DNA of 64,000 nucleotides from Geobacteraceae bacterium (lineage in GTDB: Bacteria > Desulfobacterota > Desulfuromonadia > Geobacterales > Pseudopelobacteraceae). This document shows positions 5,322 through 26,851 of the stretch, in pieces. The position numbers were made by a program, and so were the translations under genes. How positions within the stretch are numbered: position 1 is the stretch's first letter; each line of letters opens with the position of its first letter. The notes under the pieces are model-generated. The model did no database searches. It saw nothing but the letters and a program-made list of their open reading frames with translations, and was not told the origin of the DNA. The stretch is taken from assembly GCA_013336525.1 (NCBI GenBank), contig JAAXTM010000003.1, forward strand, positions 62,001 to 126,000. Reading direction: 5' to 3'.

Positions 5322-5330
5322 GGGTCAATC

Positions 5331-5359
5331 CGGGTGCCGGGAGTTTACCCCGGCACCCG
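5331..5359 (+). other. Intra-operon hairpin after porin
   Basis: CGGGTGCCGGG (5331-5341) pairs perfectly with CCCGGCACCCG (5349-5359) over a 7-nt loop. No T-run follows. It may protect the highly expressed porin message or attenuate downstream transcription. Confidence 0.6.
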
Positions 5360-5388
5360 ACTCTAACAAGTTAAGGAGAATGATCCCT

Positions 5389-5718: not shown

Positions 5719-5869
5719 CAAAAAACTCCCATACCTTATGACCAGTAGCATCTATGCTAATTTGTTGTTTGTATTTGACAAACATTCATTTTACTTTCAA
5801 ACGGATAAACTGATAATATACGTCAACAATGATCTTACGATTGATCACATCTAAAGGAGAACACAATCT

Positions 5870-6151: not shown

Positions 6152-6160
6152 TTAAGTAAT

Positions 6161-6188
6161 GGCCGGGGTCGAGTGATCGGCCCCGGCC
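6161..6188 (+). other. Strong GC hairpin
   Basis: GGCCGGGG pairs with CCCCGGCC, extended inward by CGA/TCG over a 4-nt loop. No T-run follows. It lies between the small secreted protein and the TorD chaperone and could limit transcription or protect the upstream message. Confidence 0.5.
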
Positions 6189-6226
6189 ACCCACCGAGCA
6201 AGACAGTCTTTTACTAAATTATACCT

Positions 6227-6802: not shown

Positions 6803-6803
6803 C

Positions 6804-9056: not shown

Positions 9057-9110
9057 CAGCATGGACAACATTGCCATAATAAATTCTGAACGAACGATGG
9101 AGAGATAATT

Positions 9111-9917
9111 ATGAGTCAATACGGCATGGTCATAGATCTGAACAGGTGTGTCGGCTGTCACGCCTGCAGTGTCGCTTGCAGGGCCGAATGGGATGTCCCT
9201 GTCGGTGTAGACAGTTCAAAACGGAAACAGCGCAGAAACTGGGTCGAGCGACTTGGACCTGATGCCACTCCGCATGGCTTGGCTGCGACCTATTATGTCG
9301 GTCTCTGCAACCATTGTGATAACCCGGTTTGTGTGGAAAGTTGCCCGGCAGACAAAGTGTCGGCAACCTTTAGCGACCCCAAAACAGGTCTGAAAAAAAC
9401 TGTGAGTGTTGCGGCAACCTGGAAAGACCCGTTTAACGGTACGGTACAAATTGACAAGGAACGCTGCATTGGCTGTGGCGCTTGCGCTGACAGCTGCCCC
9501 TATACGGCGCGATATGTTATTGAAGAAAGCGGCACGCCAAAGGCGGACAAGTGCACGCTCTGTGTTGAGCGGACCGCTGTTGGTCTGGAACCTGCCTGCG
9601 TCCATACCTGTCTTGCCAGTGCTCGAATTTATGGCGATCTGAACGATAAAAAAACAGAGATAGCACAATACGTTGGCAAAGGGGCCATCAGGCTAGAGAG
9701 CGCCAAGGTGAAGATTGGGCCCAATGTCCGTTATTACGGCAATAAGAAGGATATCAGTCTCCTTACCAAAAACTCAACACCTGAAAAAATGGCCGAGATC
9801 AATCATCGTCGTATCTTCATGGCGAGGATGTTGCGGCCGTCACTGAAAGCGTTTAACAGCAATAGCCTTATTGGTTTATTAGGAACAATCGCTACTGAAA
9901 AGGGTGACAACGCGTAA
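9111..9917 (+). CDS. Four-cluster ferredoxin subunit of Mo reductase
   Basis: A 268-aa protein of the DmsB/PsrB/NrfC type. Four cysteine groups are visible: CVGCHACSVAC, CNHCDNPVCVESCP, CIGCGACADSCP and CTLCVERT...CVHTC, together binding four [4Fe-4S] clusters. It relays electrons to the Mo subunit encoded 54 bp upstream. It has no signal peptide, so it would be exported with its partner by the Tat pathway. The C-terminal 60 residues after the last cluster are longer than minimal family members and contain a mildly hydrophobic segment (SLIGLLGTIA) that might aid docking. Confidence 0.92.
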   Translation: MSQYGMVIDLNRCVGCHACSVACRAEWDVPVGVDSSKRKQRRNWVERLGPDATPHGLAATYYVGLCNHCDNPVCVESCPADKVSATFSDPKTGLKKTVSVAATWKDPFNGTVQIDKERCIGCGACADSCPYTARYVIEESGTPKADKCTLCVERTAVGLEPACVHTCLASARIYGDLNDKKTEIAQYVGKGAIRLESAKVKIGPNVRYYGNKKDISLLTKNSTPEKMAEINHRRIFMARMLRPSLKAFNSNSLIGLLGTIATEKGDNA

Positions 9918-9947
9918 AAAAGTTAAACCTTAAAGGACGTTGATCTA

Positions 9948-10042
9948 CAGATGTCGCAGATTAACGCAGATAAAACCATTATTATTAGATTCAAGCCTTA
10001 GAATTGTCTGTGAATATTGGAGTTAATCTGCGGACAACTGTT
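9948..10042. repeat. Palindromic intergenic repeat R1
   Basis: Left arm CGCAGATTAACGCAGATAA (from 9955) and right arm GTTAATCTGCGGAC (10022-10035) are imperfect inverted copies. The same arms flank elements at 10691, 35944 and 43927. Non-coding. Confidence 0.75.
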
Positions 10043-10137
10043 TTTTTAAAGGTTTTATAAATGGTATTGAGCGCCGGAGATGGCAGCTCTGAAACATGTA
10101 ACAAAGGATATCTTCATGTATCCTTCCTCCATGTGAT

Positions 10138-10167
10138 GCCGGCGGATGGCCTCCGCCGGCCTTTTTT
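10138..10167 (+). terminator. Rho-independent terminator
   Basis: GCCGGCGGA (10138-10146) pairs with TCCGCCGGC (10152-10160) over a 5-nt loop, followed by CTTTTTT. It closes the porin-reductase operon or an intervening transcript. A weaker hairpin (AAGGATA/TATCCTT) lies just upstream at about 10105-10126. The rest of 10043-10282 shows no gene. Confidence 0.85.
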
Positions 10168-10282
10168 GTGCGCTGTATTTTGTATAGCCATACCCCTTGG
10201 TTGTCAGACCTTTGTAATCGTGATAAAGGTGGACAGCACCGTCCCAAATATATACGCATTTTAAAAAGGCTTACGAGTAACA

Positions 10283-10675
10283 ATGAAAACGATTCATCAC
10301 TCCCGTCGCAGCTTCATTACCATGCTGGTTGCCCTGCCGCTTCTGCTGGCCGGGCTATGGCGGTTTCTGACACCCAAAGGGGTAAAAAAACCGACGTTGC
10401 TGCAGGTGGCGCAGGCTGACATCCCGGTCGGGGCAGCTCTTGTTTTTCGTCAGGAGCGTGTGGCGATTATGCGTGAAGGTAGTTCATTCATCGCGCTGAG
10501 CCTGGTTTGTACCCACCTTGGCTGCACCGTTTCGGTTACCCCGGAGGGGATGGTCTGCCCTTGTCACGGCAGCCGCTTCGACAAGTTGGGCAAGGTGCTG
10601 ACCGGTCCGGCTGAAAAGTCTCTGGTGCGGCTGGCAGTCGAACAAAATGGTGTAGATCTGGTCGTGCGTGGATAA
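10283..10675 (+). CDS. extO: Rieske 2Fe-2S protein (ExtO-like)
   Basis: A 130-aa protein with an N-terminal Tat-type anchor (HSRRSFITMLVALPLLLAG) and a Rieske domain whose ligands are visible in CTHLGC and CPCHGS. It would sit on the periplasmic face as the high-potential arm of a quinol-oxidising complex. Followed by split cytochrome b genes and a tetraheme cytochrome, the order matches the ExtO-P-Q-S genes of the Geobacter selenite/tellurite (Ext) operon; this name is by recollection of gene order and is tentative. Confidence 0.85.
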   Translation: MKTIHHSRRSFITMLVALPLLLAGLWRFLTPKGVKKPTLLQVAQADIPVGAALVFRQERVAIMREGSSFIALSLVCTHLGCTVSVTPEGMVCPCHGSRFDKLGKVLTGPAEKSLVRLAVEQNGVDLVVRG

Positions 10676-10690
10676 CGAACCTGAAAATCA

Positions 10691-10846
10691 GTTATCCGCA
10701 GATTAACGCAGATATACGCAGATAAAACCAAACATTTCTGCAAAAAAACGATTAACCAATTGGTTAAACCGAGATTTGTTCTAAGTCTATGCTTTTTCGG
10801 TGTGTATCTGCGTAAATCTGTGTAATCTGCGGATTTGATACAGTTT
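10691..10846. repeat. Palindromic intergenic repeat R2
   Basis: Left arm TATCCGCAGATTAACGCAGA and right arm TAATCTGCGGATTTGATA are inverted copies. The interior contains GGTTAAACCGAGATTTG, related to modules in R4 and R5. It separates the Rieske gene from cytochrome b. Confidence 0.8.
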
Positions 10847-10866
10847 TATTGGATGAAGGAGCATTG

Positions 10867-11487
10867 GTGTTCAAAGACTTTCTAAAACATCTCTTCCCCC
10901 GAGTGGTGCTGCAGCGGAATCTGCGCATCAGCTATACATTCTGCCTGGGGGGGCTGGCCTTCACGGCACTGTTGTTGTTGGCCCTGTCGGGGCTGCTGCT
11001 GATGTTCTACTATCGTCCCGGCGCTACCGAGGCCTACAACTCGATCATCTTTCTGGAAGCTTCAGTACATGGCGGCAAGTATCTGCGCAGTCTGCACCGG
11101 ATGGCTTCTCACGCACTGTTGATCCTGATTATGCTGCATACTTTACGAGTGGTACTAACAGGTGCTTTCGCTCCGCCGCGGCAGCGCAACTGGATCATCG
11201 GTGCCTGTCTGCTGGGGTTGGCCGCTTTTGAGGCTTATACCGGTTATCTGCTGCCGATGGACCAGCTGGCGCTCTGGGCCACACAGACCGGTATGACACT
11301 GCTTGAAGCGGCACCACTTGGAGAGTTTTTTCGTGATATTCTTGTGCCTGACAGTGTTGGTGGGCCGCTGTCGCTGATCCGCTTTTATGTACTGCATATT
11401 GTGCTGTTGCCGGCCGTTACGTTCTGCTTCTGTCTTCTTCATTTTTACCTGGTGCGCAAGCAGAAGGGGCTGCTCCCTTACCTATGA
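10867..11487 (+). CDS. extP: Cytochrome b N-terminal subunit (ExtP-like)
   Basis: A 206-aa membrane protein with four likely helices. Paired histidines lie in helices around SLHRMASHALLILIMLHTLR and further on near FYVLHIVLLPAV, as in cytochrome b6-type bis-heme proteins; TGYLLPMDQLALWATQ resembles the quinol-site region. A frame start TTG at 10849 exists, but GTG at 10867 is preferred because AAGGAG lies 5 nt upstream. It overlaps the next gene by 4 bp, so translation is coupled. With the Rieske protein it would oxidise quinol and pass electrons to cytochrome c. Confidence 0.85.
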   Translation: MFKDFLKHLFPRVVLQRNLRISYTFCLGGLAFTALLLLALSGLLLMFYYRPGATEAYNSIIFLEASVHGGKYLRSLHRMASHALLILIMLHTLRVVLTGAFAPPRQRNWIIGACLLGLAAFEAYTGYLLPMDQLALWATQTGMTLLEAAPLGEFFRDILVPDSVGGPLSLIRFYVLHIVLLPAVTFCFCLLHFYLVRKQKGLLPYL

Positions 11488-11894
11488 AAACCTACCTGAA
11501 AAGCTCACCGCATTTTTTTCGCCTCATCAAACGATCATTATTGCTTTGCATGGCCTTTTTGCTGCTGCTTGCTGCGCTGATACCGGCTCCTCTGCAGGAA
11601 CCGGCCAAGCTTTCAGTCGTGCCGAATCCGGTCAAGTCGGCCTGGTTTCTGCTCTGGATTCAGGAGCTGGTCAGCTATCGAGTCTGGCTGATCTATCCGG
11701 TTATGCTGGGCGGAATTCTCTTTGTCGCTATGCCGTGGCTGATTGGCAGGGCGCCTGAAAGGGCGGTCTGGTTCGGTCCCAGGCATCGCACAATTGCGGT
11801 CTTGGTATTGGTTCTGTCTATGGGGATACTGCTGCTGACACTGATCGGACTATTTTTCAGGGGGGAAAATTGGGCTTTAGTCATGCCGTTCTGA
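11484..11894 (+). CDS. extQ: Cytochrome b C-terminal subunit (ExtQ-like)
   Basis: A 136-aa protein with three predicted membrane segments (LLLCMAFLLLLAALIPAP, VWLIYPVMLGGILFVAM, IAVLVLVLSMGILLLTLIG). VPNPVKSAWFLLWIQELVSY matches the start of subunit-IV-like domains of cytochrome bc/b6f complexes. ATG overlaps the stop of the preceding gene (ATGA). It completes a split cytochrome b. Confidence 0.8.
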   Translation: MKTYLKSSPHFFRLIKRSLLLCMAFLLLLAALIPAPLQEPAKLSVVPNPVKSAWFLLWIQELVSYRVWLIYPVMLGGILFVAMPWLIGRAPERAVWFGPRHRTIAVLVLVLSMGILLLTLIGLFFRGENWALVMPF

Positions 11895-12664
11895 TAGCTG
11901 CCATTCTGCTTGCCTCTGCACTTCCAGCATGGGCTGCATCCGGAAATAGTTGTCTGGAGTGTCATCAAGTACACTATGCCGGTCAGGGTAGCTGCAGTTA
12001 TTGCCACCGCGGCAACCAGCGCACCAATCGTAAGGAACTGGCACACAGCGACTTGATCAGGGGGCGTTACGCCGGTTTTGCCAACAGCCGCTCAGTTGAG
12101 CTGTTATCAGGTAACAAACTTGCGGAAAAAGCTGCCTGCCGCCGCTGTCACGTTTTGAACGGTACCGGTAACCGCCTGGCAACAAACCTTGACAGCCTGC
12201 TCTGGACGACTCAGCCGGAGGCAATCCGCTCAGCGCTGGTTAATCCGGCACTGTATATGCCCAATTTTCATTTTTCGGAGAAGGATCTTGACCGCCTGGT
12301 GACGACGGTCCTTGCCGGTGGGCTAAAGGGGGGAAAGACTCTCAGAGAACCTCCTCTGGTGGTTCATTTCAGTAATACTGAATCAGTGAAGCAGAACATC
12401 TTTGTCAAAAACTGCGGCAGCTGTCATAAACTGCTGTCGAAGCGGGATGGAGGCTTGGGGGATGGAATCATTGGGCCAAACCTGTCAGGTCTGCTGAGCC
12501 GGTTTTATCCGCAGACATTTGAAGACAATAAACCTTGGGACGAGGAACGGTTGAAACGCTGGCTAAAAAACCCTCGTGCCATCAGGAAGAATGCGGTTAT
12601 GCGACCGATAGCCCTGAAGCCTGAAGAGTGGGACCAACTCTTGAAAACTCTCGCCACATCATAA
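11870..12664 (+). CDS. extS: Tetraheme c-type cytochrome (ExtS-like)
   Basis: A 264-aa secreted cytochrome: signal peptide (AVLIAAILLASALPAWAAS) and four CxxCH heme sites, CLECH, CSYCH, CRRCH and CGSCH. The C-terminal half (CGSCHKLL ... GPNLSGLLSRF ... NAVMRPI) resembles a mono-heme cytochrome c domain fused to a multiheme N-terminal part. The likely start is TTG at 11870 after GGGGGGAAAA, overlapping the previous gene by 25 bp. No lipobox is seen. It is the probable electron acceptor of the Rieske/b module. It ends 5 bp from the convergent Acr3 gene, with no terminator between. Confidence 0.85.
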   Translation: MGFSHAVLIAAILLASALPAWAASGNSCLECHQVHYAGQGSCSYCHRGNQRTNRKELAHSDLIRGRYAGFANSRSVELLSGNKLAEKAACRRCHVLNGTGNRLATNLDSLLWTTQPEAIRSALVNPALYMPNFHFSEKDLDRLVTTVLAGGLKGGKTLREPPLVVHFSNTESVKQNIFVKNCGSCHKLLSKRDGGLGDGIIGPNLSGLLSRFYPQTFEDNKPWDEERLKRWLKNPRAIRKNAVMRPIALKPEEWDQLLKTLATS

Positions 12665-12669
12665 AACCT

Positions 12670-14088
12670 TTACGCCAGCACCGCCTCAATTCCTCGTCGG
12701 ATAAGCTCCGGCGACAACTCTTCATAAACCTCACCATCACACTTTACCGTGCGACAGCTGGTTTCCTCGCCGGTCAGGCAGCCGCATGACGGACATTCCG
12801 ACTCACCAGCGGCACCATCAGCCAGCAACTCTTCCAGAGGCACGCCGTTAATCAGCACAAGATTTGATTCGCTGATCCGGTCCGTCGACAGAAGTGTCTC
12901 CTGCAGTTCAATTACGACACCGCGCCCGGCAAATTCCTTGACCACCGCAGCAAGGTTGGCCCCGGTCCCGCTACAGCGGTCACAGGTAGACCCTTCCTTG
13001 TCGTAATGCCGCCATTCCACGCTGATGCTCTTCTGCTGGTTTTTAATATTAAACCAGTGTCGCTGGAACCAGAATGCCACATGTACCAGTCCGATCATTA
13101 CCGGCACTTCTACCAGCGGTCCGATGACTGCAGCAAAAGCTGCGCCGGAATTGAGGCCGAAGACAGCGATCGCCACGGCAATGGCAAGCTCGAAGTTGTT
13201 GCTGGCTGCGGTAAACGCCAGCGTAGTGGTCTTGCTGTAGTCAGCGCCCATCTTTTTACCCATCCAGAACGAAACCAGAAACATAACGATAAAGTAGATG
13301 CAGAGCGGGATGGCGATGCGCACTACGTCAAAAGGAAGTTGGACAATCAGGTTGCCCTTGAGACTGAACATGACAATTATCGTGAAAAGTAATGCGATCA
13401 AAGTCAATGGGCTGATTTTTGGAACGAACTCTCGGTGATACCGTTCCTTGCCCATAACCTTTATGCCGATCAAGCGGGTCAAAGCGCCGGCGATACAGGG
13501 GATACCCAGGTAGATAAAGACGCTCTCGGCAATCTGACGGATGCTGACGTCAACTACCATCCCTTTTAACCCGACCAGCGGCGGCAGCACGGTGATGAAG
13601 AACCATGCATAGACGCTGTAGAACAGTACCTGAAAGATACTGTTAAACGCCACCAGGCCGGCGGCGTACTCGGTGTTTCCCTTGGCCAGCTCATTCCAGA
13701 CAATTACCATGGCTATGCAGCGCGCCAGACCGATCATGATCAATCCCACCAGATACTCCGGCTTGTCCGGCAGCAGCAGCGCCGCCAGCACGAACATCAG
13801 CACCGGCCCGATCAACCAGTTCTGCGCCAGCGAGATGCCGAGGATCTTCTTGTTCTGAAATACTTCCGGCATATCCTCATACTTCACCTTGGCAAAAGGT
13901 GGGTACATCATCAGGATCAGACCAACAGCGATCGGGATGTTGGTTGTACCGACCTGGAAACGGTTGATGAAGGATTCCGTGCCGGGTACGAAGTAGCCGA
14001 GACCGACACCCAAAGCCATGGCAGCGAAGATCCAGAGGGTCAGCCAGCGGTCGAGGAAGGAAAGTTTTCGGGCCAGATGTTCACTCAT
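12670..14088 (-). CDS. acr3: Acr3 arsenite efflux permease fused to DUF2703
   Basis: A 472-aa protein. Residues 1 to about 350 form the ten-helix Acr3 carrier, beginning with [19 protein letters not shown] and containing [16 protein letters not shown] with the functional cysteine, and [12 protein letters not shown]. After about residue 355 comes a cytoplasmic domain with [25 protein letters not shown] and [16 protein letters not shown], matching the cysteine-rich DUF2703 domain usually encoded as a separate arsenic-associated protein. The domain may deliver or sense As(III). ATG overlaps the ArsC stop by 4 bp. Confidence 0.93.
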
Positions 14089-14501
14089 TTTGTCCCTCCA
14101 AAATAGTCAATGATCCAGCTTTTTATTTCATCCCGCACCCGACGGAATTCGGGGAGAACTTCATCTTCGCTCCCTGTCAATCGTGACGGATCTTCAAAAC
14201 CATGATGGATGCGTTCTACTCCCCCGAAAAAGAGCGGGCATTTTTCATTGGCATCACCGCAAAGGGTAACAACATGATCAAAGGTTTGTCCGGCAAATTC
14301 ATCCATTGACTTGGAATACAGGTGCGAGGTGTTGATGCCCAGTTCGGTCAGCACATGAATTGCCAGCGGGTTGACCCGCGTGGATTCGGTGCCGGCGGAA
14401 AAAGCCTGACAGTGATCGCCCAGATAGTGGTTGACCAATGCTTCGGCCATCTGGGAGCGGCAGGAGTTGTGGGTGCAGAGAAAGAGGATTTGTTTTTTCA
14501 T
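14085..14501 (-). CDS. arsC: Arsenate reductase, low-molecular-weight phosphatase type
   Basis: A 138-aa protein beginning [20 protein letters not shown], which carries the CX5R phosphatase loop (Cys10) of thioredoxin-coupled ArsC. A second pair of cysteines ([12 protein letters not shown]) fits the redox relay used by this class. It reduces arsenate to arsenite in the cytoplasm, and the arsenite is exported by the Acr3 protein encoded next. The frame extends to 14564, but homology and the promoter favour 14501. The -10 (TATAAT) ends only 7 nt before this ATG, so the mRNA may be leaderless. Confidence 0.92.
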
Positions 14502-14508
14502 AAAAGTC

Positions 14509-14536
14509 ATTATATCTGCCAAGACGGATATAGCAA
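14509..14536 (-). promoter_or_regulatory. arsC-acr3 promoter
   Basis: On the minus strand TTGCTA (14536-14531), a 16-bp spacer and TATAAT (14514-14509), immediately upstream of arsC. Confidence 0.6.
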
Positions 14537-14537
14537 G

Positions 14538-14566
14538 TTGAAATCTGATAATTGTACGATACAATT
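14538..14566 (+). promoter_or_regulatory. Promoter/operator of lipoyl-DGC-OsmC operon
   Basis: TTGAAA (14538-14543), 16 bp, TACAAT (14560-14565). The -10 is overlapped by a perfect inverted repeat, AATTGTA-CGA-TACAATT (14550-14566), a plausible repressor site that could also affect the divergent arsC promoter. Confidence 0.5.
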
Positions 14567-14598
14567 CATATCATCACATTCAATCAAGGAGGCCACTT

Positions 14599-15039
14599 AT
14601 GGATGGATTTCTGGAAGTAACCATTGACAAGTTTACGTTCCGGGTGGACCAAAGCTGCCTTTATTCCAGCGAAGGCTTATGGGTAAGGTTTGACGGCGGT
14701 GTGGCAAAACTTGGGCTTTCTGATTTTTTACAGCAACGGAGTGGTGATATTGCCTTCATAGATATAAAGCCGGTAGGAACGATTCTGGCTCTTGACGATG
14801 AGTTTGCCTCCATTGAAACGGTCAAAGTAAATGTCATGCTTGCATCACCGGTTGCAGGAAAGATCGTGCGCGTGAACCCCGCCTTGGATATGAAACCGGA
14901 ACTGATAAATCAGGCCCCATTCGGTGATGGGTGGGTGTGCGAGGTTGAAGCTGACAATCCGGACGCTGCAAAGGGGCTGTTACTGGATGCTGATGCCTAC
15001 TTCATAAAAATGAAGAGCGATGCAGAGGAGGCCCTATAA
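14599..15039 (+). CDS. Lipoyl-carrier, glycine-cleavage H-like protein
   Basis: A 146-aa protein of the GcvH fold. The lipoyl lysine lies in ETVKVNVMLASPVAG (family usual ESVKA...SPVSG), followed by NPALDMKPELINQAPFGDGWVCEVE, matching the H-protein C-terminal half. No other glycine-cleavage genes are nearby, so it probably carries a lipoyl arm for another reaction, as H-like proteins do in sulfur-oxidising heterodisulfide-type systems. AAGGAGG precedes ATG. It heads a four-gene operon with two DGC proteins and OsmC; the next start overlaps its stop. Confidence 0.85.
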   Translation: MDGFLEVTIDKFTFRVDQSCLYSSEGLWVRFDGGVAKLGLSDFLQQRSGDIAFIDIKPVGTILALDDEFASIETVKVNVMLASPVAGKIVRVNPALDMKPELINQAPFGDGWVCEVEADNPDAAKGLLLDADAYFIKMKSDAEEAL

Positions 15040-15470
15040 TGATGAACGGCGTACAAAAAAAAATTGCGATTGTACCGTGCAGTGGAATTGGAAAACCGTA
15101 CGGAACGGTCAGTCGAGTAGCCTCCTATATGGTGACGGAGGACTATCGTTCAGAGTTTACCAAACTCGTCCCATTGGCTTTGCTTGTAATGGGTGACGAA
15201 GGGTATGGAAGGATCATAGCAGAAAGTCCGGCAATCACAATTGACGGCTGTCCGCAGGCCTGTGCCACAAAGATGGTGCTGCAATGCGGTGGTACGGTTC
15301 TTCGAGAATGCTCGGTGCTGGGAACAAATCGAAACCATCGGGATTTAAAGCCGCAGGGGATAGCGGAACTTAACGAGGATGGCGAGAAACTGGCCAGTGA
15401 ACTGGCACAGGAAATTATTGCAGTGATCGACGCATGTGGGCAACCTTCAAAAGGAGGGGACCATGCCTGA
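15039..15470 (+). CDS. DGC-motif putative zinc-binding protein 1
   Basis: A 143-aa protein with VPCSGIGKPYG at the N-terminus, TIDGCPQACATK in the middle and CGG further on, the conserved cysteine set of the DGC family (PF08859, putative zinc binding). GGAGG lies 7 nt upstream of ATG, and its first base overlaps the previous stop. It is a clear paralogue of the next gene. Function is not known; the cysteines and lipoyl partner point to thiol or metalloid chemistry (inference). Confidence 0.8.
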   Translation: MMNGVQKKIAIVPCSGIGKPYGTVSRVASYMVTEDYRSEFTKLVPLALLVMGDEGYGRIIAESPAITIDGCPQACATKMVLQCGGTVLRECSVLGTNRNHRDLKPQGIAELNEDGEKLASELAQEIIAVIDACGQPSKGGDHA

Positions 15471-15882
15471 ACTGCCTCGCAAAAAGGTTGGCATCATTGC
15501 CTGTTCCGGCGAAGAGCTTCCGGAAGGAACCATTACCCGACTGGCTGCGTTAAGAGTACTGCATGAGCTGCGTCCGGAAGATACGGTAACAATCTGCCTG
15601 CCGCTTTTCCTGGCCGGTGGTGAAGCTGACCGGAATTTTGCACGGTTTTATCCGACCATTGCCTTGGACGGATGCGATAAACAGTGCGCCTTCCGTGGAA
15701 CTGAAAAATATTCCAGTCGCCCCGCCGCAGCTATTGTGGTGACCGATCTGATTGCACGGCACGGTCTGGATAAACCTCACGGGTGCCGGAAGCTGGATGC
15801 TGCCGGAATGAAGGCAGTCGAGCTTGCTGCTCAGGAGGTCGCTGACACGGTGGAAAAACTGCTGGAGAAAGGTGAAAGGTAA
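15463..15882 (+). CDS. DGC-motif putative zinc-binding protein 2
   Basis: A 139-aa paralogue of the preceding protein: IIACSGEELPEGTITRLA, then ALDGCDKQCAF. ATG at 15463 follows AAGGAGGGGACC and overlaps the upstream gene by 8 bp; an earlier in-frame ATG at 15436 lacks a ribosome site. Having two DGC copies side by side suggests a hetero-oligomer. Confidence 0.8.
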   Translation: MPELPRKKVGIIACSGEELPEGTITRLAALRVLHELRPEDTVTICLPLFLAGGEADRNFARFYPTIALDGCDKQCAFRGTEKYSSRPAAAIVVTDLIARHGLDKPHGCRKLDAAGMKAVELAAQEVADTVEKLLEKGER

Positions 15883-15886
15883 AGGC

Positions 15887-16339
15887 ATGGGACAAACCAC
15901 GACCTATCATACCGAAGTGTCCTGGAAGGGTGACCATTGGGGCCGCATTATCATGGGGAACGGCCCTGAAATGGATTTTTCGGCCCCGCCCGACGCGCAG
16001 GGGCATGCTGGTGTGCTGACTCCCGAAGACGCGTTTGTTGCCGCCGCAAACAGCTGCATCATGATGATGTTTATCTGGGCGACGGAACGCTTCAAGCTCA
16101 AACTGATTTCCTATAGCTGCAGGGCAGAGGGTACCAAGCTGATCGAGCTGGACCGGACCGAGACCTTTACCCATCTCCGTTTCTGGCCGGCGATCAGGAT
16201 TGCGGTCGGTAATGAGACTGCTGAGGTTATTCGCGCTCGGACGGAACGGGCTCTGCAGTCTGCCCGCAAATACAGTCTGGTAGCCAATTCGGTTAAGTCA
16301 GAGATCATTATTGAACCACAGATTGAGATTGTTTATTAG
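15887..16339 (+). CDS. OsmC/Ohr-family protein
   Basis: A 150-aa protein of the OsmC fold: TPEDAFVAAANSCIMMMFIWATER contains the first conserved cysteine region, and the C-terminal part (IEVIRARTERALQSARKYSLVANSVKSE-like) matches the family, although a Cys at the usual second position is replaced (RKYSLVANS rather than a C-containing helix). OsmC proteins are thiol peroxidases using dihydrolipoyl carriers as electron donors, which makes the nearby lipoyl protein a plausible partner. Loss of the second cysteine may mean a different role. ATG lies 4 bp after the previous stop. Confidence 0.85.
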   Translation: MGQTTTYHTEVSWKGDHWGRIIMGNGPEMDFSAPPDAQGHAGVLTPEDAFVAAANSCIMMMFIWATERFKLKLISYSCRAEGTKLIELDRTETFTHLRFWPAIRIAVGNETAEVIRARTERALQSARKYSLVANSVKSEIIIEPQIEIVY

Positions 16340-16367: not shown

Positions 16368-18182
<1,815 letters not shown>

Positions 18183-18190
<8 letters not shown>

Positions 18191-18452
18191 CGACAACAAT
18201 CTCAAAAAGCAGGTGGAACAGCGGGTCAAGCGTCTTGTCAGAGCTCAGAGGGAAAAGTCCTCAGTATTGGGGCAGTCACTTTACATGGGAACACTGGGGC
18301 TGCTGCTGATCTTACCAGTGTTAGGCGGGGCTTATCTGGGGCTTTGGCTCGACGGAATGTCTTCCGGCTATTCCGTCCGCTGGACATTCTCAGGGCTGTT
18401 TCTGGGGGTCGTAATCGGCGGATTTAATGTGTATCTACTGCTAAAGGAGTAA
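18183..18452 (+). CDS. atpQ: AtpQ, AtpI/AtpZ-like membrane protein
   Basis: An 89-aa protein with two predicted membrane helices (GTLGLLLILPVLGGAYLGLW and FSGLFLGVVIGGFNVYLLL) after a basic N-terminus. Such proteins help assemble the c-ring. ATG at 18183 follows GAGGAACCC and overlaps atpC by 8 bp. The AtpR gene that usually follows in N-ATPase operons is absent: atpB starts 4 bp after this stop. Confidence 0.82.
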
Positions 18453-18455
18453 GCC

Positions 18456-19142
18456 ATGCTGGACGGCACACACGCATTATTTTATTTGGGCCCCTTGGCA
18501 GTCAGTACGACGGTTGTTACCACATGGGGCATCATGGTTATCCTGATTCTGCTTTCGTGGGTTTTTACCTGTCGGCTCTGTATCGATCCCGGTCCTCTTC
18601 AGATTGCCGTGGAGGGAGTCATAGAGGCTATTCAAGTCGCCGTGAGTGAGGTCTTGCCACAACGGGGCGACACCGTATTTCCATTTGTGGCAACAGTGTG
18701 GATTTTTATCGGAGTGGCCAATCTCTCCAGTCTGGTTCCCGGCATTCATTCCCCCACTGGAGATATCTCCGCTACAATGGCCCTGGCGCTACTGGTCTTT
18801 AGTTCTGTTCATTGGTTTGGCATAAAAATTGTGGGACTGCGCCACTATCTGAAGCATTACATCTCGCCGAGTCCGATACTTCTGCCGTTTCATATTATCG
18901 GGGAGGTTACACGAACCCTGGCCCTTGCTGTCCGTTTGTTCGGCAATATGATGAGCCTGGAGATGGCGGCACTTCTTGTACTGCTTGTAGCCGGCCTATT
19001 CGCACCGATCCCCCTGCTTATGCTCCATATTGTCGAGGCGTTGGTGCAGGCTTACATTTTTGGCATGTTGGCACTGATTTATATCGCAGGCGCCATCCAG
19101 ACACTGGAGGCCCGGCACCCCTTGAAGGAGGAAGAGTCATGA
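18456..19142 (+). CDS. atpB: N-type ATPase Fo subunit a
   Basis: A 228-aa protein with five to six helices. The conserved ion-channel arginine lies in GEVTRTLALAVRLFGNMMSLEM. AAGGAGTAAGCC precedes the start and the stop overlaps atpE (ATGA). Confidence 0.93.
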   Translation: MLDGTHALFYLGPLAVSTTVVTTWGIMVILILLSWVFTCRLCIDPGPLQIAVEGVIEAIQVAVSEVLPQRGDTVFPFVATVWIFIGVANLSSLVPGIHSPTGDISATMALALLVFSSVHWFGIKIVGLRHYLKHYISPSPILLPFHIIGEVTRTLALAVRLFGNMMSLEMAALLVLLVAGLFAPIPLLMLHIVEALVQAYIFGMLALIYIAGAIQTLEARHPLKEEES

Positions 19143-19405
19143 CCCCTATATCCTGGTTTGTACTCGCATCGACGATAGTGGCGTTGTTCGCAATGGCAGT
19201 AGGAATCATCGCCCCTGCAAACGCCATGGGCAAGGCCATTTGTACGGCCCTGGAATCTCTGGCCAGGCAGCCGGAAGCCGAGAAGTCACTCAGCAGAACC
19301 CTCTTCATCGGCCTCGCCATGATTGAGTCTCTGGCTATCTACTGTCTCGTTGTTGTACTGATAGTCCTGTTCCGAAATCCGCTTCTCGAATACCTCCTGA
19401 AATAA
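19139..19405 (+). CDS. atpE: N-type ATPase Fo subunit c
   Basis: An 88-aa two-helix protein. Loop RQPEA is conserved. The ion-binding glutamate is in helix 2 (GLAMIESLAIYC), with Ser at +1 and Tyr at +5. The helix 1 position that is Gln in sodium-binding c-rings aligns with Met here (PANAMGKA), so proton use is more likely than sodium (inference). ATG overlaps the atpB stop. Confidence 0.92.
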   Translation: MTPISWFVLASTIVALFAMAVGIIAPANAMGKAICTALESLARQPEAEKSLSRTLFIGLAMIESLAIYCLVVVLIVLFRNPLLEYLLK

Positions 19406-19417
19406 CGGGGGCATCCA

Positions 19418-20164
19418 ATGGAACTCGATCTGACCACATTTCTAATGGAAATTGCCAACTTCTTGATCCTTGTTTGGATCATGAACCGTCTACTCTATAA
19501 ACCGGTACGCACAATCATCGCTAAACGGCAGACAGCAATGGCATTTATACGTTCTGAAGCAGAGCGAGTGCACGCCGAAGCGGCTGAGCTGGGGCAAACA
19601 TACCAAGGGCGTCTGGCTTCCTGGGACGCAGAAAAAGCGGAGCTTCGGCGCCAGTTACTGGCGGAAATTACCGATGAGCGCCAACGCCTGATGGAAGGCC
19701 TGGATTTGGAACTTACTGATATGCGCGATAAAGCCCGCGTTACGGAAGAACGTCAAGCCGAGGAACGGGTTCGACTCTGTGAAGAGCGTGCGATCGCAAA
19801 AGCCGGCCAGTTTGCTGCACGGCTGCTGACTCGCCTCGCTACTCCGGAACTGGGGAAACAGCTTGCCGAAATGCTTCTTGAAGACTTGACCGGACTCCCC
19901 GATGAACAGAGACGGGCCATTATCCAATCACTTAGCAGGGAAGGAGCTATGGTTCGGGTAGTGAGCGCTCATCCTCTTGCAGAAGTTGTATCCGAAGAGT
20001 TTGAACAACGGTTTCGTGAGATTTTTCCGGAGGCCAGGCTTTTCAGTTTCAGCGTCAATGAAGATCTGTTAGCCGGAATCCGCGTGAATACCGGCCCTTG
20101 GAACCTGTCTGCCAATCTCAAAGAGGAACTTGCCTTTTTCAGGGGTGGGATCAATGGAGAGTGA
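19418..20164 (+). CDS. atpF: N-type ATPase fused b-delta subunit
   Basis: A 248-aa protein: one N-terminal membrane helix ([16 protein letters not shown]), a long coiled coil to about residue 150, then a C-terminal region ([28 protein letters not shown]) that resembles the C-terminal part of the delta subunit. The operon has no separate delta gene, consistent with this fusion. Confidence 0.88.
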
Positions 20165-21674
20165 AGTCCAGTCATTATCACCCTCCCAAATGTTCTCATC
20201 TCCTCTTGCAAGTTTGGAAATGAGGCTGACAGGGTACCGGCCGATGACCCGCTTCATGGAACTGGGATGTGTGGTTGCCGTTGGAGATGGTGTTGCCTGG
20301 ATTCGCTGCCTCCCCTCAGCTGCCCTTGATGACATTATCGCACTGGAAGATGGCAGCCGGGCGCTTGTATTTCACCTTGGGCAAGAGTTGGTGGGCGCCA
20401 TTCTTCTCCAGCAGACCGATCGTCTCACCGCCGGAACCGGGGCGCTGCTTGCCGGGTCCAGGCCTGTCGTGCCTGTGGGAGATACCCTCCTGGGAAGAGT
20501 TGTCGATCCGTTGGGACATCCGCTTGATGGCTTACCGCCTCCACGAAACTGCATGCACCGGGAAATTTTCGGGCCGTCCCCGTCGATTTTGGCGCGCACC
20601 TTTGTCAATGAACCGCTCTACAGCGGCACAACCATTGTCGATACCATGATTCCAATCGGGAAGGGCCAGCGTCAGCTGATTATCGGCGGGTCATCCACCG
20701 GAAAAAGTTCTCTGGCTCTTGATGCTGTTATTAGCCAGAAGGGAAGTGGTGTTCTCTGCATCTACGTCTTGATCGGACAGAAACGTTCCAAGGCGGTAAC
20801 CATTGTAGAAACCCTTCGTGCAGCCGGGGCGCTTGACCATACAACCGTCGTGGTGGCTGAAGCCTTTGAGCTCCCGGGGCTAAAATACCTGGCACCTTTT
20901 GCCGGTTGTGCCATTGCCGAGGAATGGATGCACAAAGGTCTGGATACTTTGATTGTTTATGACGATCTATCCCTCCACGCCCAAACTTACCGTGAGATAT
21001 CATTGCTGCTCCGTCGACCGCCGGGCCGTGAAGCTTATCCCGGCGACATCTTTTATCTGCATGCTCGTCTGCTGGAACGCTCCACTGTTATGGCTGCAAG
21101 CCATGGGGGGGGCAGTATGACTGCGTTGCCGATAATTGAAATCCAGCAGGGTGAACTGGCCGCCTATATTCCAACCAATCTGATCTCAATCACCGATGGT
21201 CAGATCTATCTTGACCAGGAACTTTTCGCCGCCGGTTTCCTGCCGGCAATCGACATCACTCGCTCCGTTTCCCGCATCGGAGGCAAAGCACAACATCAAC
21301 GGGTAAAGGAAGAGGTAGGGCGAATGAAGCTCGACTACCTTCAGTTTTTGGAGTTAGAAGTTTTCACCCGTTTCGGTGCACGTCTGGAGGCTTCGGTCGA
21401 AGCCCGTATAAGGCGTGGCAAGGTTCTGAGGGAGTTGCTCAGGCAGGAACGTCGTGAGCCGTTGCCGGTTGAGTACCAACTTGCCTGGCTCATGGTCTTC
21501 AATGGAGGGATGCTGGATGGAAAGCTGCCGGAAGAAATCCCGGAGATTATGAAACGGTTAGAAATGGCTGTAAAGTGGGGGGACTGTACGCTGGAAAACA
21601 GCCGCGAGGCTTGGCACGAAATCGTTACTGCTGCATTGACAGAACATGGTGGGGCAGATGGCCGGCAGGCGTGA
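20154..21674 (+). CDS. atpA: N-type ATPase F1 alpha subunit
   Basis: A 506-aa nucleotide-binding subunit with a Walker A variant [31 protein letters not shown] and [17 protein letters not shown] at 20154 (GGGTGGGATCA upstream) is preferred to the in-frame ATG at 20130; it overlaps atpF by 11 bp. Confidence 0.94.
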
Positions 21675-22578: not shown

Positions 22579-22926
22579 TCAGGAGCAGGTTGATGGTTTG
22601 TCTTTAAGGAATGCCGCCAGGGCAGTGCGGTCTGAAATTACTTCAGGAAGGTTACTGGCATGCTGTTTAAGGATTTGGAGTATCTCTTTGCAGATGGTGC
22701 AGCTTTCCAGACTCAGCGAATAATACATCCATACCTTGTCACGGCGGATATCTACCCAGCAGCTGCGTTTAAGGTAGGCCAAGTGACGTGAAACTGTGGA
22801 TTGGGGCAGTCCTAGTACTTCCATCAGGTCGCAGACGCACAGTTCACCTTCTGCCTGCAGCAGGAGGACGATGCGCAGGCGGATCGGGTCGGAAAGGGCT
22901 TTGAGGGTTTGGGCGAGATGTTGCAT
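22579..22926 (-). CDS. ArsR-family regulator, divergent from arr operon
   Basis: A 115-aa winged-helix repressor: LKALSDPIRLRIVLLL, metalloid-type GELCVCDLMEVL, recognition helix PQSTVSRHLAYLKRS. A second cysteine pair (CTICK) and a C-terminal CS add further thiols. It is divergent from the cytochrome c7-arrA-arrB genes and very likely controls them. A perfect promoter (TTGACC-17 bp-TATAAA) ends 8 nt before the ATG, so the transcript would have almost no leader. Confidence 0.92.
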   Translation of the reverse strand: MQHLAQTLKALSDPIRLRIVLLLQAEGELCVCDLMEVLGLPQSTVSRHLAYLKRSCWVDIRRDKVWMYYSLSLESCTICKEILQILKQHASNLPEVISDRTALAAFLKDKPSTCS

Positions 22927-23375: not shown

Positions 23376-25979
23376 ATGGAAATCAAACGTCGGGATTTTC
23401 TTAAATTGACTGCTGCTGCCGGTGCCGTGGCAACCATCGGTCTGCCGAAGCTGAATGCATTTGCATCGCATCATATGCCAAAACCGGGAGACGCTCCAAA
23501 AGGTGAGTGGATTCCCTCTACCTGCCAAGGGTGCACCGCCTGGTGTCCGGTGGAGTTTTATGTGCAGGAAGGGCGCATCGTCAAGGTGCGCGGCAACCAG
23601 CTTTCAAAAGCCAACAACGGCTACTGCTGCCCCCGTGGTCACCTGATGGTCCAGCAGACCTATGATCCGGATCGGATCAAGATGCCGATGAAGCGGACCA
23701 ATCCCCTGAAGGGGCGCGGTGTCGATCCAAAGTTCGTTCCTATCTCCTGGGATGAAGCGCTGGATCTGGTGGCCGACAAGATGATCGAACTGCGCAAGAC
23801 CGGTCATCCGGAAAAGCTGACCTATATGAGGGGGCGCTACTCTTCAACCGCTACTGAGCTGCTGTACGGCACACTGCCCAAAATTTACGGCACATCCAAC
23901 TACTTCTCTCACAGCGCTATCTGTGCTGAAGCCGAGAAGATGGGCCCCGGCTATACCCAGGGCTTCTTCGGCTACCGTGACTACGATCTGGCCAAGACCA
24001 AATGCCTGGTAATTTGGGGCTGCGACCCGCTCTCTTCCAACCGGCAGGTGCCGAATGCCATCAACAAATTTGGCGATATCATGGATAGAGGCACCGTAAT
24101 AGCTGTTGATCCACGTTTTTCCACCTCGGCTGCCAAGGCCAATGAGTGGTTGCCGCTCAAACCGGGCGAAGATGGTGCTCTTGCCTCTGCCATTGCCCAT
24201 GTGCTGCTGACTGAAGGGCTCTGGAGCAAAGAGTTTGTCGGCGACTTCAAAGATGGCAAAAATCTGTTCAATTCCGGTGCAGCTGTTGACGAAGCGGCCT
24301 TTATTGAAAAGCAGACTCACGGCATCGTCAAATATTGGAATATTGAACTGAAAGATAAAACACCAGTCTGGGCCGCCAAAAAGACGCTGATCCCGGTCGC
24401 ACAGATCCTCAAAGTTGCGCGTGCCATGGGTAAGGCCGGGTCCGCCTGTGCCGTCTGGATGGGGCCTGGCGTGGCGATGACCCCTCGTGGAACCTATGCA
24501 TCAATGGCGGTCTACGCCCTGAACGGCATTCTCGGTTCCATTGAAACAGAAGGGGGTGTTTTCCAGAGTTCCAGCACGCCAGGCACAAAATTTCCGGAGA
24601 TCACGGACCTCTTCGTTGACGACATTGCGAAAAAAGGGAGCAAAGGCAAAAAACTTGACGGTCGCGGTGCCAAGGATATGCCTGCAATCATGGGTGGCTA
24701 CGACAAAAAAACGGACAAAGACGGCAAGGTGACCGAGAGCGCCAAGGCCAATGTGGTTACCAACGCTGTGGCCGACGGCATCCTGAAAGACCCGGCAGCC
24801 TGCCAGATATTTATCAGTTCCTGGAGTAACTTCAACTTCTCGGCCACCGGCGCGCAGCGCTGGGATCAAGCAATGGCCAAAGTTCCTTTCTTTGTCCATA
24901 TGGTGACCAATGCCTCGGAGATGACCCAGTTTGCCGATGTCGTGCTGCCGGCCACCTTTGCGCCAACCGAGAAGCTTTCCATTATCACCAATATGGCAAA
25001 CCTGCATGGGCACGTATCGATTCAGCAGCCGGTCGTAAAGCCGCTCTGGAACGTGAAATCGGAAGAGACCGAGGTGGTCTGGCTGCTGGCAGAGAGGCTG
25101 AAGGCCAAGGGATTCCCAAACCTGTTTGACTACTATGCCTCTTTCGAAGATCCTGAGACCAAAAAGAAACCGACAAACGCCGCCGAATTCGAAGAGATCG
25201 CCGCCAAGATCTCCAGCCAGAAGGTTTGGGACGGCAAGGAGAAGATGAAAGGCGACAAGGTTTCCGGTTGGGCCGAGTTCAGGAAAAAGGGTATCTACAA
25301 TACCGAAGCCTACGCCTACAAAAAAAATTGGGGCAAGGTAGATCCGGTGACCGGCAAGTTCGTGGGCAAGTTCAAAACCGAGACCGGCAAATTTGAGTTC
25401 TACAGCGAAACTTTGAAGAAGACTCTGACCCTTTTTGCCTCCAAGCATAAGACCAGCATTGACGACGTTCTGAAATCAAGCGGGTACGAGGCTCAGGGCG
25501 AACTGGTATTTGTGCCTCACTACGAGTCGCCCAAGCGTCATGGCAGCCTGAAGGAGTATCCTTTTACCTTTATCGACCATAAATCTCGCCTTAACCGCGA
25601 AGGACGCAGCCAGAATACCGTCTGGTACCAAGAGTTCAAAAAAGTGGACATAGGCGACAAGAGCTGGGATGACGTGGCCAAACTCAACCCGGTAGATGCC
25701 AGGAAACTCGGAATCAAGGACGGCGACAAAATCCGTCTTACTTCCACCAGTGGCTCCATTACCTGCAATGCCCGTCTCTGGGAAGGTGTTCGCCAGGGAA
25801 CAGTGGCAAAGTGCTACGGCCAAGGTCACTGGGCTTATGGTCGTGTTGCAGCCAAGGAATACGGCAAGACAGCGCGCGGCGGTAATAACAATGAACTCAT
25901 GCCGTCCGACTTTGATCGTCTGAGCGGGGCTACTGCCCGTAACGGCGGTTTCACCGGTGTCAAGATTGAGAAAGCTTAG
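23376..25979 (+). CDS. arrA: ArrA-type respiratory reductase catalytic subunit
   Basis: An 867-aa Tat-exported enzyme (KRRDFLK at residues 4-10). Cys50, Cys53, Cys57 and Cys84 or Cys85 bind 4Fe-4S. The active site follows ArrA: RGRYS at 152-156, HSAICAEAEK at 179-188 with Cys183 as Mo ligand, Lys188, and Tyr200 in FGYRDYDL; DPLSSNRQVP and ISWDEALD also match. By family knowledge ArrA reduces arsenate to arsenite in respiration. Closely related clades act on antimonate or selenite, so the substrate is not certain. The ArsR, ArsC and Acr3 neighbours favour arsenic. GGGGGGAACGTAC precedes ATG. Confidence 0.85.
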   Translation: MEIKRRDFLKLTAAAGAVATIGLPKLNAFASHHMPKPGDAPKGEWIPSTCQGCTAWCPVEFYVQEGRIVKVRGNQLSKANNGYCCPRGHLMVQQTYDPDRIKMPMKRTNPLKGRGVDPKFVPISWDEALDLVADKMIELRKTGHPEKLTYMRGRYSSTATELLYGTLPKIYGTSNYFSHSAICAEAEKMGPGYTQGFFGYRDYDLAKTKCLVIWGCDPLSSNRQVPNAINKFGDIMDRGTVIAVDPRFSTSAAKANEWLPLKPGEDGALASAIAHVLLTEGLWSKEFVGDFKDGKNLFNSGAAVDEAAFIEKQTHGIVKYWNIELKDKTPVWAAKKTLIPVAQILKVARAMGKAGSACAVWMGPGVAMTPRGTYASMAVYALNGILGSIETEGGVFQSSSTPGTKFPEITDLFVDDIAKKGSKGKKLDGRGAKDMPAIMGGYDKKTDKDGKVTESAKANVVTNAVADGILKDPAACQIFISSWSNFNFSATGAQRWDQAMAKVPFFVHMVTNASEMTQFADVVLPATFAPTEKLSIITNMANLHGHVSIQQPVVKPLWNVKSEETEVVWLLAERLKAKGFPNLFDYYASFEDPETKKKPTNAAEFEEIAAKISSQKVWDGKEKMKGDKVSGWAEFRKKGIYNTEAYAYKKNWGKVDPVTGKFVGKFKTETGKFEFYSETLKKTLTLFASKHKTSIDDVLKSSGYEAQGELVFVPHYESPKRHGSLKEYPFTFIDHKSRLNREGRSQNTVWYQEFKKVDIGDKSWDDVAKLNPVDARKLGIKDGDKIRLTSTSGSITCNARLWEGVRQGTVAKCYGQGHWAYGRVAAKEYGKTARGGNNNELMPSDFDRLSGATARNGGFTGVKIEKA

Positions 25980-25998
25980 GAAAGGGGGGATATCATAA

Positions 25999-26769
25999 AT
26001 GGCAAAACAATACGGAATGGTTATTGACCTGCAAAAATGTGTCGGCTGCGGCGCCTGTGCTCTGGCCTGTAAAACCGAGAATAATACCCAGGCACGGGCA
26101 AATGGACAGACATTTAACTGGGCCGATTTCATCTACAAGGAAGAGGGGAAATTCCCCAACCCGAGTTTCAGCGCCATACCGGTGCTTTGTAATCACTGCA
26201 CCGACGCGCCCTGTGTTAAAGCCTGTCCGGTCAAGGACAAGGCGATGTATAAGACCGCAGACGGTATTACTATGCACAACGACGAGCGTTGTATCGGCTG
26301 CCGCCGCTGTCAGAAAGCCTGCCCTTACAGTGCCACGGATGTGGTGAAGGACAAGGCTGCGTACTCCGTCATCAGTGCTAATGAAGGAAAAGCTCCTCCT
26401 CATGCGGCATCACGCGATACAAGTGAAATGATCATAGGATGCACCGCTTCCGGCGCCGAAACAGCGAAAATGGCCGGGGGAGTCATCCCGAACCACCATA
26501 AGTTCAGTCATTCGGATTATGAAAGCATCCGCAAGCAGGGTATGGTTGAGAAATGCATCTTCTGTGATCATCGTGTAAAAAAAGGCGAAATGCCCAATTG
26601 CGTGGTGGCCTGCCCGGCCAAAGCACGCATTTTTGGCGATGTTAATGATGCCGCCAGCGAACCGGCCAAGTTGCTGAAGAAGTATAAGCCGATGCGCCTA
26701 AAGGAAGAAAAAGGCACAAAACCGAATGTAGCTTATATCCGCGCCTTCAAGGCAGGGAATAAAGTTTGA
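25999..26769 (+). CDS. arrB: ArrB-type four-cluster ferredoxin subunit
   Basis: A 256-aa protein with four cysteine groups: CVGCGACALAC, CNHCTDAPCVKACP, CIGCRRCQKACP and CIFCDHRVKK...CVVACP. HSDYESIRKQGMVEKC is typical of ArrB. It has no signal peptide and would be exported with the A subunit. It lies 19 bp after arrA and is followed by a terminator. Confidence 0.88.
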   Translation: MAKQYGMVIDLQKCVGCGACALACKTENNTQARANGQTFNWADFIYKEEGKFPNPSFSAIPVLCNHCTDAPCVKACPVKDKAMYKTADGITMHNDERCIGCRRCQKACPYSATDVVKDKAAYSVISANEGKAPPHAASRDTSEMIIGCTASGAETAKMAGGVIPNHHKFSHSDYESIRKQGMVEKCIFCDHRVKKGEMPNCVVACPAKARIFGDVNDAASEPAKLLKKYKPMRLKEEKGTKPNVAYIRAFKAGNKV

Positions 26770-26802
26770 TAGCCTACGGGTTTGTGCTGATATAAACTTT
26801 TC

Positions 26803-26836: not shown

Positions 26837-26851
26837 ATGAGGACTCATAGT

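Follow-up and report, generated by a model that had tools for sequence, protein, structure and literature searches.

A conserved cassette of a lipoyl carrier, paired DGC proteins and an OsmC-like protein in an arsenic island, a candidate dithiol relay

Lipoate bound to proteins has known roles in 2-oxoacid dehydrogenases, in glycine cleavage and in defence against peroxides, to which sulfur oxidation by the sHdr system was added in 2018, according to a PLoS Biology paper of 2023 (PMC10332631). Here, we analyze a cassette of four adjoining genes, encoding a GcvH-like lipoyl carrier, two DGC-domain proteins (DGC1 and DGC2) and an OsmC-like protein, in 64,000 nucleotides of the genome of a Geobacteraceae bacterium (GenBank assembly GCA_013336525.1, contig JAAXTM010000003.1, positions 62,001 to 126,000 of the forward strand; this whole stretch is called the window). 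The cassette recurs across phyla and is a candidate for the core of a protein dithiol relay associated with arsenic.

The closest precedent comes from the hydrogenosomes of Trichomonas, where an OsmC protein and an incomplete glycine decarboxylase reportedly form a reductive chain, in the words of the title of that work; the glycine decarboxylase proteins that remain there are said to be the H and L proteins. The likeness lies in an OsmC protein working with glycine decarboxylase proteins, while the setting differs, as far as the title tells: it is an organelle of a eukaryote, the task is peroxide detoxification, neither DGC proteins nor an arsenic operon are named, and the OsmC-like protein of the cassette has a shifted second cysteine. 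Lipoylated proteins serve as reductants of Ohr, which relies on Cys61, Glu51 and Arg19 (PMC5962072). With such lipoyl-dependent peroxidases of the Ohr/OsmC type, the cassette protein shares the OsmC fold and a Cys57 preceded by a glutamate at minus 10, but it has serine at the usual place of the second cysteine and a conserved Cys78 instead, and it comes with a dedicated carrier and DGC partners. The cassette is set apart from the Ohr and Trichomonas precedents by its paired DGC proteins, the moved second cysteine, a dedicated carrier clade and the arsenic context.

LbpA of the sHdr system is likewise a lipoyl carrier of the GcvH type that works elsewhere than in glycine cleavage; genes dedicated to its lipoylation adjoin it (PMC6067878 and PMC10332631), and it has two strictly conserved cysteines near its N and C terminus (PMC6067878). 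The carrier of the cassette is without such a conserved pair, its partners are DGC and OsmC-like proteins, its context is arsenic, and the one lipoyl synthase scored, in locus L125, passes the LipA cut-off and falls far short of LipS2. We do not count the carrier as an LbpA, no column of its alignment exceeding 25% cysteine in 79 rows. The string "arsen" is absent from the main text of both the eLife 2018 paper on LbpA (PMC6067878) and the PLoS Biology 2023 paper on lipoate (PMC10332631).

Known ars operons (arsR, arsC, acr3, arsA, arsD, arsM) resemble our locus in sharing genomic islands with the cassette and in having an ArsR of the CVC type. We know of no described ars function that uses protein-bound lipoate. 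Both DGC proteins score over the cut-off of the DGC family (PF08859), other members of which in this phylum are also linked to arsenic; those of the cassette differ in being paired, lower-scoring and accompanied by a lipoyl carrier. To our knowledge, DGC proteins have been reported only as proteins of unknown function. Arsenic islands with ars and arr genes, together with uspA and unnamed open reading frames, are described in the genome paper of Geobacter sp. OR-1. No description of the four-gene set was noticed among the papers listed by searches of a literature collection that lacked most subscription papers.

A four-gene unit conserved across phyla

The carrier and DGC1 genes (Table 1) overlap by 1 base and the DGC1 and DGC2 genes by 8, and a gap of 4 bases precedes the OsmC-like gene, so the "tightly overlapping" genes of an initial annotation made from the sequence alone hold for the first two junctions but not for the last. 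All four products exceed the curated Pfam cut-offs (27 bits for PF08859), and DGC1 and DGC2 are paralogues, each matching the orthologues of the other at about 25-38% identity. Pfam matches, coordinates and cross-matches thereby bear out that annotation in its view of an H-like protein, two paralogous DGC proteins and OsmC in one compact unit. Narrower models are missed by the carrier (93.8 versus 115.85 bits for NCBIfam gcvH, 99.8 versus 117 for PRK01202) and by the OsmC-like protein (30.7 versus 166.15 bits for the NCBIfam OsmC subfamily).

For conservation beyond the phylum, public genomes were scanned with a DGC2 profile built from cassette loci, and the best 80 of the 209 relatives found were analyzed, nearly all of them from metagenome assemblies; five assemblies contribute two loci each. 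All four genes occurred in the same order, on one strand and within 3.5 kb in 73 of these 80 best loci, and four others were truncated by contig ends (L052, L076, L102 and L113). By record name, the loci fall into nine named phyla: Chloroflexota (53), Acidobacteriota (11), Verrucomicrobiota (4), Myxococcota (3), Thermodesulfobacteriota (2), Kiritimatiellota (2), and Omnitrophota, Bipolaricaulota and Methanobacteriota with one each; two records carry no phylum name, and L094, the archaeal record, consists of one binned contig. The four families thus co-occur elsewhere, which the initial annotation had proposed to look for and whose failure to do so would have refuted it.

Within the phylum of the window, taken to be Desulfobacterota on account of its near relatives L036 and L061, 297 genomes were scanned with the carrier, and 101 of them matched at 1e-20. 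The nine best places besides the window (E up to 5e-31, in eight genomes) align through the N-terminal extension of the carrier. DGC1 and DGC2 adjoin the carrier in eight of the nine, the contig of the ninth (genome G006, locus L013) ending before the DGC genes; OsmC is found in six, one of them frame-broken, and the contig ends first in the other three. The broken copy belongs to G166 (L011, L127), where DGC1 contains a stop and the reading of OsmC is broken across frames. Eight same-phylum cassette loci were used in the comparisons below. In a quick tree of 111 carriers, made without bootstrap (85 from cassettes and 26 other GcvH rows; L052 omitted), the cassette carriers form one side of a branch supported at 99 in the Shimodaira-Hasegawa-like approximate likelihood ratio test (SH-aLRT). 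The carrier of the window groups with L036 and L061, beside Chloroflexota rows and at a distance from the other seven cassette rows of the phylum, which suggests horizontal transfer. A plasmid search with DGC2 gave no match.

We then consider the carrier and its lipoyl chemistry. The putative lipoyl lysine, Lys76, is present in all 78 rows that cover the position, and so is Glu73. Queries for GcvP and GcvT, taken from the genome of the window itself, matched none of the 80 and none of the 8 cassette loci, compared with 12 (GcvP) and 9 (GcvT) of 20 control loci, which are the surroundings of ordinary GcvH genes. Elsewhere in the genome of the window, gcvT-gcvH-gcvPA-gcvPB form a run of their own, accompanied by lipA and a gene resembling lipoate ligase (gcvT and lipA named by reading and query matches), and a full Lpd (dihydrolipoyl dehydrogenase) gene lies at another place. 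A role of the carrier in glycine cleavage is rejected, given this separate run and cassettes without GcvP or GcvT nearby; the statement that glycine-cleavage partners are missing holds for the window, where none was seen near the cassette, as for these loci.

Lpd lies directly upstream of the cassette, at most 118 bases away, in 13 of the 80 loci; one copy (L090) is in two frames, and a fourteenth member of the cluster (L086), which reads as a different flavoprotein on the opposite strand, was dropped. In four of the eight same-phylum loci, Lpd lies directly behind OsmC, where five of the eight have sequence reaching. Both Lpd examples tested pass the TIGR01350 cut-off of 408.8 (509 in L062, 488 in L125). 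Three loci (L125, L176 and L199) read GcvH-DGC1-DGC2-OsmC-Lpd-LipA-LplA in one run on one strand, and L198 ends after Lpd. LipA of L125 reaches 374, over its cut-off of 310, and scores far lower against LipS2, and the adjoining ligase has a Pfam LplA/B catalytic domain (123 bits). Such a domain is encoded somewhere in the genome in 29 of the 31 cassette genomes checked. In L072, a 288-residue fusion joins a third DGC domain to a carrier of the cassette type, both over cut-off, near DGC1, DGC2 and Lpd; we take it as further evidence that DGC proteins and the lipoyl carrier act together. Together, the conserved lipoyl lysine, the abutting Lpd, and LipA with a ligase in the same run of three genomes support well the thiol-redox reading first proposed for this locus. 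Reduction of a metalloid, which the initial annotation also raised, would be one conceivable outcome, beside reduction of peroxides or carriage of As(III).

The cysteines of the partner proteins are conserved as well. DGC1 keeps C13, C70 and C74 in 99, 100 and 100% of 80 rows, and DGC2 keeps its four cysteines in 99-100% of 81 rows. In a structural model of DGC2 (predicted local distance difference test [pLDDT] 88.9, predicted template modeling score [pTM] 0.60), these four lie at or just after the C-terminal ends of predicted strands, as read from the secondary structure, which would put them at the active-site position of a Rossmann-like fold. Searched against solved structures, the DGC2 profile gave no match under E 0.03, and the DGC1 profile gave none at E up to 1. 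One fold search with the DGC2 model gave no match at E up to 0.001, and a second gave only common Rossmann/flavodoxin-like matches (best Z 7.5, root-mean-square deviation [rmsd] 3.8, 104 aligned residues, mostly residues 4-138). We claim no functional relative of DGC2 by fold from such common matches, which barely cover the C-terminal tail. A CxCG tail is present in most DGC2 relatives of the 80 loci and absent from the short DGC2 of the window. In most long DGC2 proteins of these loci (for example L042, 8448-8735), about 100 C-terminal residues form a tail that contains a CxCGSG motif and finds no usable match in Pfam.

In the OsmC-like protein, Cys57, Cys78 and Glu47 are each found in 77 of 77 rows. 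Ser130 is serine in 75 of 75 rows and aligns to a cysteine of 2onf and 2d7v that we take to be the resolving cysteine. The report of an OsmC lacking its usual second cysteine is accordingly right about that position but had missed another conserved cysteine, Cys78. On a separate branch of the same phylum, Cys57 is kept in four of four aligned OsmC proteins and Cys78 in three of four. The best of the models has pLDDT 91, the other four having means of 76-81; its best match in the Protein Data Bank by Foldseek is 2onf (E 4.4e-9, TM 0.68, rmsd 9.7 over 143 columns).

The arsenic setting

With arsC and acr3 diverging from the cassette, an ArsR-type regulator and ArrA- and ArrB-like genes around it, this part of the window is an arsenic island. 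We asked which genes accompany the cassette elsewhere; names of neighbor families rest on one representative per cluster, and flank lengths differ between loci, some being short. At least one of Acr3, ArsC, ArsA, ArsD and ArsM was found near the cassette in 46 of the 80 loci, in 4 of the 8 same-phylum loci and in none of the 20 controls (Fisher p 1e-6 and 0.003, respectively); the controls come from the phylum of the window and are not genome-matched, which makes the first comparison a rough one and the second a within-phylum one. ArsM itself occurs in 8 of the 80 and 3 of the 8 cassette loci. Further neighbors, counted by query group among the 80 loci, are ArsR (49 and 23), thioredoxin-like proteins of the MTH895/ArsE family (57 and 15), AhpD-like proteins (17), and CcdA, TSUP and radical SAM proteins (15 each).

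DGC genes outside the cassette have similar company. DGC matches occur in 63 of the 297 sampled genomes of the phylum, 44 of these 63 having a single match and 8 being cassette genomes. Thirty cassette-free DGC loci (L139-L168) of about 3 kb each, hence with flanks of about 1.5 kb, gave no match to the cassette carrier, DGC1, DGC2 or OsmC. They nevertheless show the same ars neighbors (counts are given below), in comparison with 0 of 21 equally sized loci of ordinary GcvH genes, and the arsenic setting may for that reason be tied to DGC proteins generally, the lipoyl carrier and OsmC having been added onto it. The DGC family as a whole may belong to arsenic or thiol stress. The arsenic link of the cassette is thus supported by its neighbor genes, though it is common to DGC genes outside the cassette.

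A possible dithiol relay and its alternatives

Judging from the genes and their conserved residues, we lean toward the view that the cassette is the core of an arsenic-associated protein dithiol relay, in which lipoylation, electron flow, partners and induction by arsenic are what we infer. The GcvH-like carrier would be lipoylated on Lys76 by LipA and ligase, whose genes belong to the operon in some relatives and lie elsewhere in the genome of the window. Lpd, with NADH, would keep its swinging arm as a dithiol, and the arm would pass reducing equivalents to the OsmC-like protein through the C57/C78 pair and probably also to the cysteine sites of DGC1 and DGC2. Further partners are likely to be the thioredoxin-like proteins of the MTH895/ArsE family, AhpD-like proteins and ArsC proteins encoded in many of the clusters. 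The end effect would be that thiol sites for arsenic handling are reduced or kept usable before efflux by Acr3. If true, the relay would be a further, widely distributed use of lipoate, tied to arsenic, and would reverse the notion that arsenite poisons lipoate: a dedicated lipoyl protein may be kept for arsenic. DGC proteins would gain a functional context from arsenic and thioredoxin-like neighbors, with and without the lipoyl carrier, and the cassette offers a small, signature-defined and testable set.

Several observations weigh against such a relay. Three of the 80 loci are true variants, L044 having no GcvH and L072 and L105 no OsmC, and neither the only other sampled genome of the genus nor any of the four further ones of the family carries the cassette. 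Queries for LipA and LplA match none of the 80 loci, the ligase of L125 lies far under the NCBIfam LplA cut-offs, and the controls also have Lpd (5/20), LipA (3/20) and a ligase (2/20) nearby. None of Acr3, ArsC, ArsA, ArsD and ArsM is seen in the flanks covered, some of them short, at 34 of the 80 loci. Among the 30 cassette-free DGC loci, 13 have one of these genes within about 1.5 kb, and 26 have an ars, ArsR or thioredoxin-like gene. Finally, a DGC1/DGC2 pair of the cassette type in G215 (L170) lies by ArsM-like genes without the cassette carrier or OsmC.

Of the alternatives, a lipoyl-dependent peroxidase is rather unlikely, in our estimate. The OsmC-like protein would reduce organic peroxides and be recycled by carrier and Lpd as Ohr is, its place in arsenic islands following from the oxidative stress caused by arsenite, with the DGC proteins as accessories. 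Glu47 lies ten residues before Cys57 as Glu51 lies before Cys61 in Ohr (PMC5962072), structures of Ohr with dihydrolipoamide are among the matches of the OsmC-like fold, and AhpD-like genes are among the neighbors counted above. Yet the invariant Ser130 with Cys78 in place of the usual second cysteine speaks against a peroxidase of this kind, as does the Arg19 of Ohr, for which no equivalent was identified, although none was systematically sought; two conserved DGC proteins and the arsenic neighbors would be left unexplained. An arrangement in which the arm carries arsenic itself seems doubtful. Here the dihydrolipoyl arm would chelate As(III) or methyl-As(III) and shuttle it among sites of DGC1, DGC2 and OsmC and the enzymes of efflux or methylation, Lpd merely keeping the arm reduced; the carrier would be the arsenic counterpart of an acyl carrier protein, served by lipoylation and reducing enzymes of its own. 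Vicinal dithiols are strong ligands of As(III), and the three nearly invariant cysteines of DGC1, those predicted at C-terminal strand ends in the DGC2 model, the arsenic link of DGC proteins without the cassette and the ArsM genes of some cassette loci would all suit it, as would G215, where one DGC pair adjoins ArsM-like genes and the other stands with GcvH-like genes in what by eye is a corrinoid methyltransferase cluster. A DGC2 with four cysteines, however, suits zinc equally well, as the Pfam note on the family reportedly has it, and 72 of the 80 loci have no ArsM in the flanks covered. If true, an arm that carries arsenic would be a new kind of system.

A sulfur module akin to sHdr with LbpA, handling persulfide or thioarsenate and merely hitch-hiking with ars genes, is highly improbable. 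TSUP and CcdA family genes are at hand at the frequencies given above, and LbpA, too, is a lipoyl carrier resembling GcvH and has lipoylation genes to itself (PMC6067878), but the two conserved cysteines of LbpA are missing from the cassette carrier, and among the conserved neighbors no family resembling heterodisulfide reductase was noticed, though no search with an Hdr profile was made. That unrelated small genes came together by chance in an arsenic island has a negligible probability: the view of a single locus could favor it, and the order conserved in 73 of 80 loci across phyla rules it out.

Two side observations concern the carrier and its surroundings. In L170, the DGC1/DGC2-like pair by ArsM-like genes and the second DGC pair with GcvH-like genes lie at 4045-8027 and 11898-15544, so that DGC and lipoyl-type proteins may recur jointly in other chemistry. 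A protein of about 116 residues with a CSCG motif is encoded directly upstream of the carrier in L127 (8028-8372), L197 (4407-4763) and L199 (8093-8443); its best match is to DUF1462, just under cut-off, and it is possibly thiol- or arsenic-binding.

Promoter, regulator and further genes of the window

Table 1. Features of the cassette and its surroundings in the window
Feature	Position	Strand	Evidence and remarks
GcvH-like lipoyl carrier, 146 aa	14599..15039	+	Pfam GCV_H (PF01597) 105 bits; putative lipoyl lysine Lys76 in ETVKVN; N-terminal DKFxF extension
DGC1, DGC-domain protein	15039..15470	+	PF08859 44.4 bits; Cys C13, C70, C74
DGC2, DGC-domain protein, short form	15463..15882	+	PF08859 59.2 bits; Cys C14, C45, C71, C75
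OsmC-like protein	15887..16339	+	PF02566 39.3 bits; conserved E47, C57, C78; Ser130 at the usual place of the second Cys
Sigma-70-like promoter, TTGAAA-16-TACAAT	14538..14565	+	Consensus match 10 of 12
Perfect 7-3-7 dyad AATTGTA-CGA-TACAATT over the -10, possible operator	14550..14566		Partly kept in L036 and L061 by eye
arsC, thioredoxin-type arsenate reductase, divergent	14085..14510	-	arsC_pI258_fam 133 bits, under cut-off 174.3; start chosen by reading
acr3 arsenite efflux permease with C-terminal DUF2703 domain	12670..14088	-	TIGR00832 451 bits, over cut-off; PF10865
ArsR-type regulator, ELCVCDL motif	22579..22926	-	83% identity to the ArsR that immediately follows the cassette in L061 (locus of a Geobacter metagenome-assembled genome)
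ArrA-like and ArrB-like respiratory arsenate reductase genes	23376..26769	+	NF041714 1005 bits full length, NF041715 246 bits; both under curated cut-offs

The cassette promoter does face arsC and acr3, as first described, the two lying upstream on the opposite strand. Of the "perfect operator" placed on its -10, the promoter and the perfect dyad are real, but the role is less certain: by eye, the half of the dyad on the -10 is identical in the two closest relatives (L036 and L061), whereas the left arm differs, and for this reason the dyad is a putative operator only by inference. The perfect copy is the only one in the genome, and a whole-genome search allowing up to two mismatches found 9 sites compared with 7 for a reversed control pattern. 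A genome-wide regulon of the dyad was accordingly rejected, its copies not exceeding the control. Allowing one mismatch at most, the shorter pattern TTGTANNNTACAA has two matches in the window, one being the dyad site, where 1.25 are expected.

Regulators of the ArsR type recur beside the cassette. In the list of nearest ArsR proteins, the motif CxC[EDHGNQ][LI] occurs in 39 of 54 rows, two of the 54 reading as ArsC frames in a mixed cluster. An operon for an F1F0-type ATPase follows the cassette at 16389-22542, its beta and alpha subunits passing the cut-offs for ordinary ATP synthase and falling under those for the alternate type. It sits between the cassette and the likely ArsR, which in L061 comes directly after the cassette.

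Further downstream, 23376-27493 holds the ArrA-like and ArrB-like genes and a gene for a TorD-family chaperone, a set that probably serves arsenate respiration, with scores under the NCBI cut-offs; for the ArrA-like protein, the NF041714 cut-off is 1600 and the second-best family reaches 270 bits. On the other side of the cassette, the DUF2703 tail of the acr3 product (12670-14088) contains several cysteines. A PhsA-like molybdopterin oxidoreductase and an iron-sulfur subunit are encoded at 6227-11894, with, by eye, a chaperone-like gene upstream and Rieske and cytochrome b-like genes. Near the start of the window, an ArsR-like gene (966-1277) is followed by tandem LysR-like regulator genes at 1371-2321 and 2827-3738, which by eye are very similar to each other.

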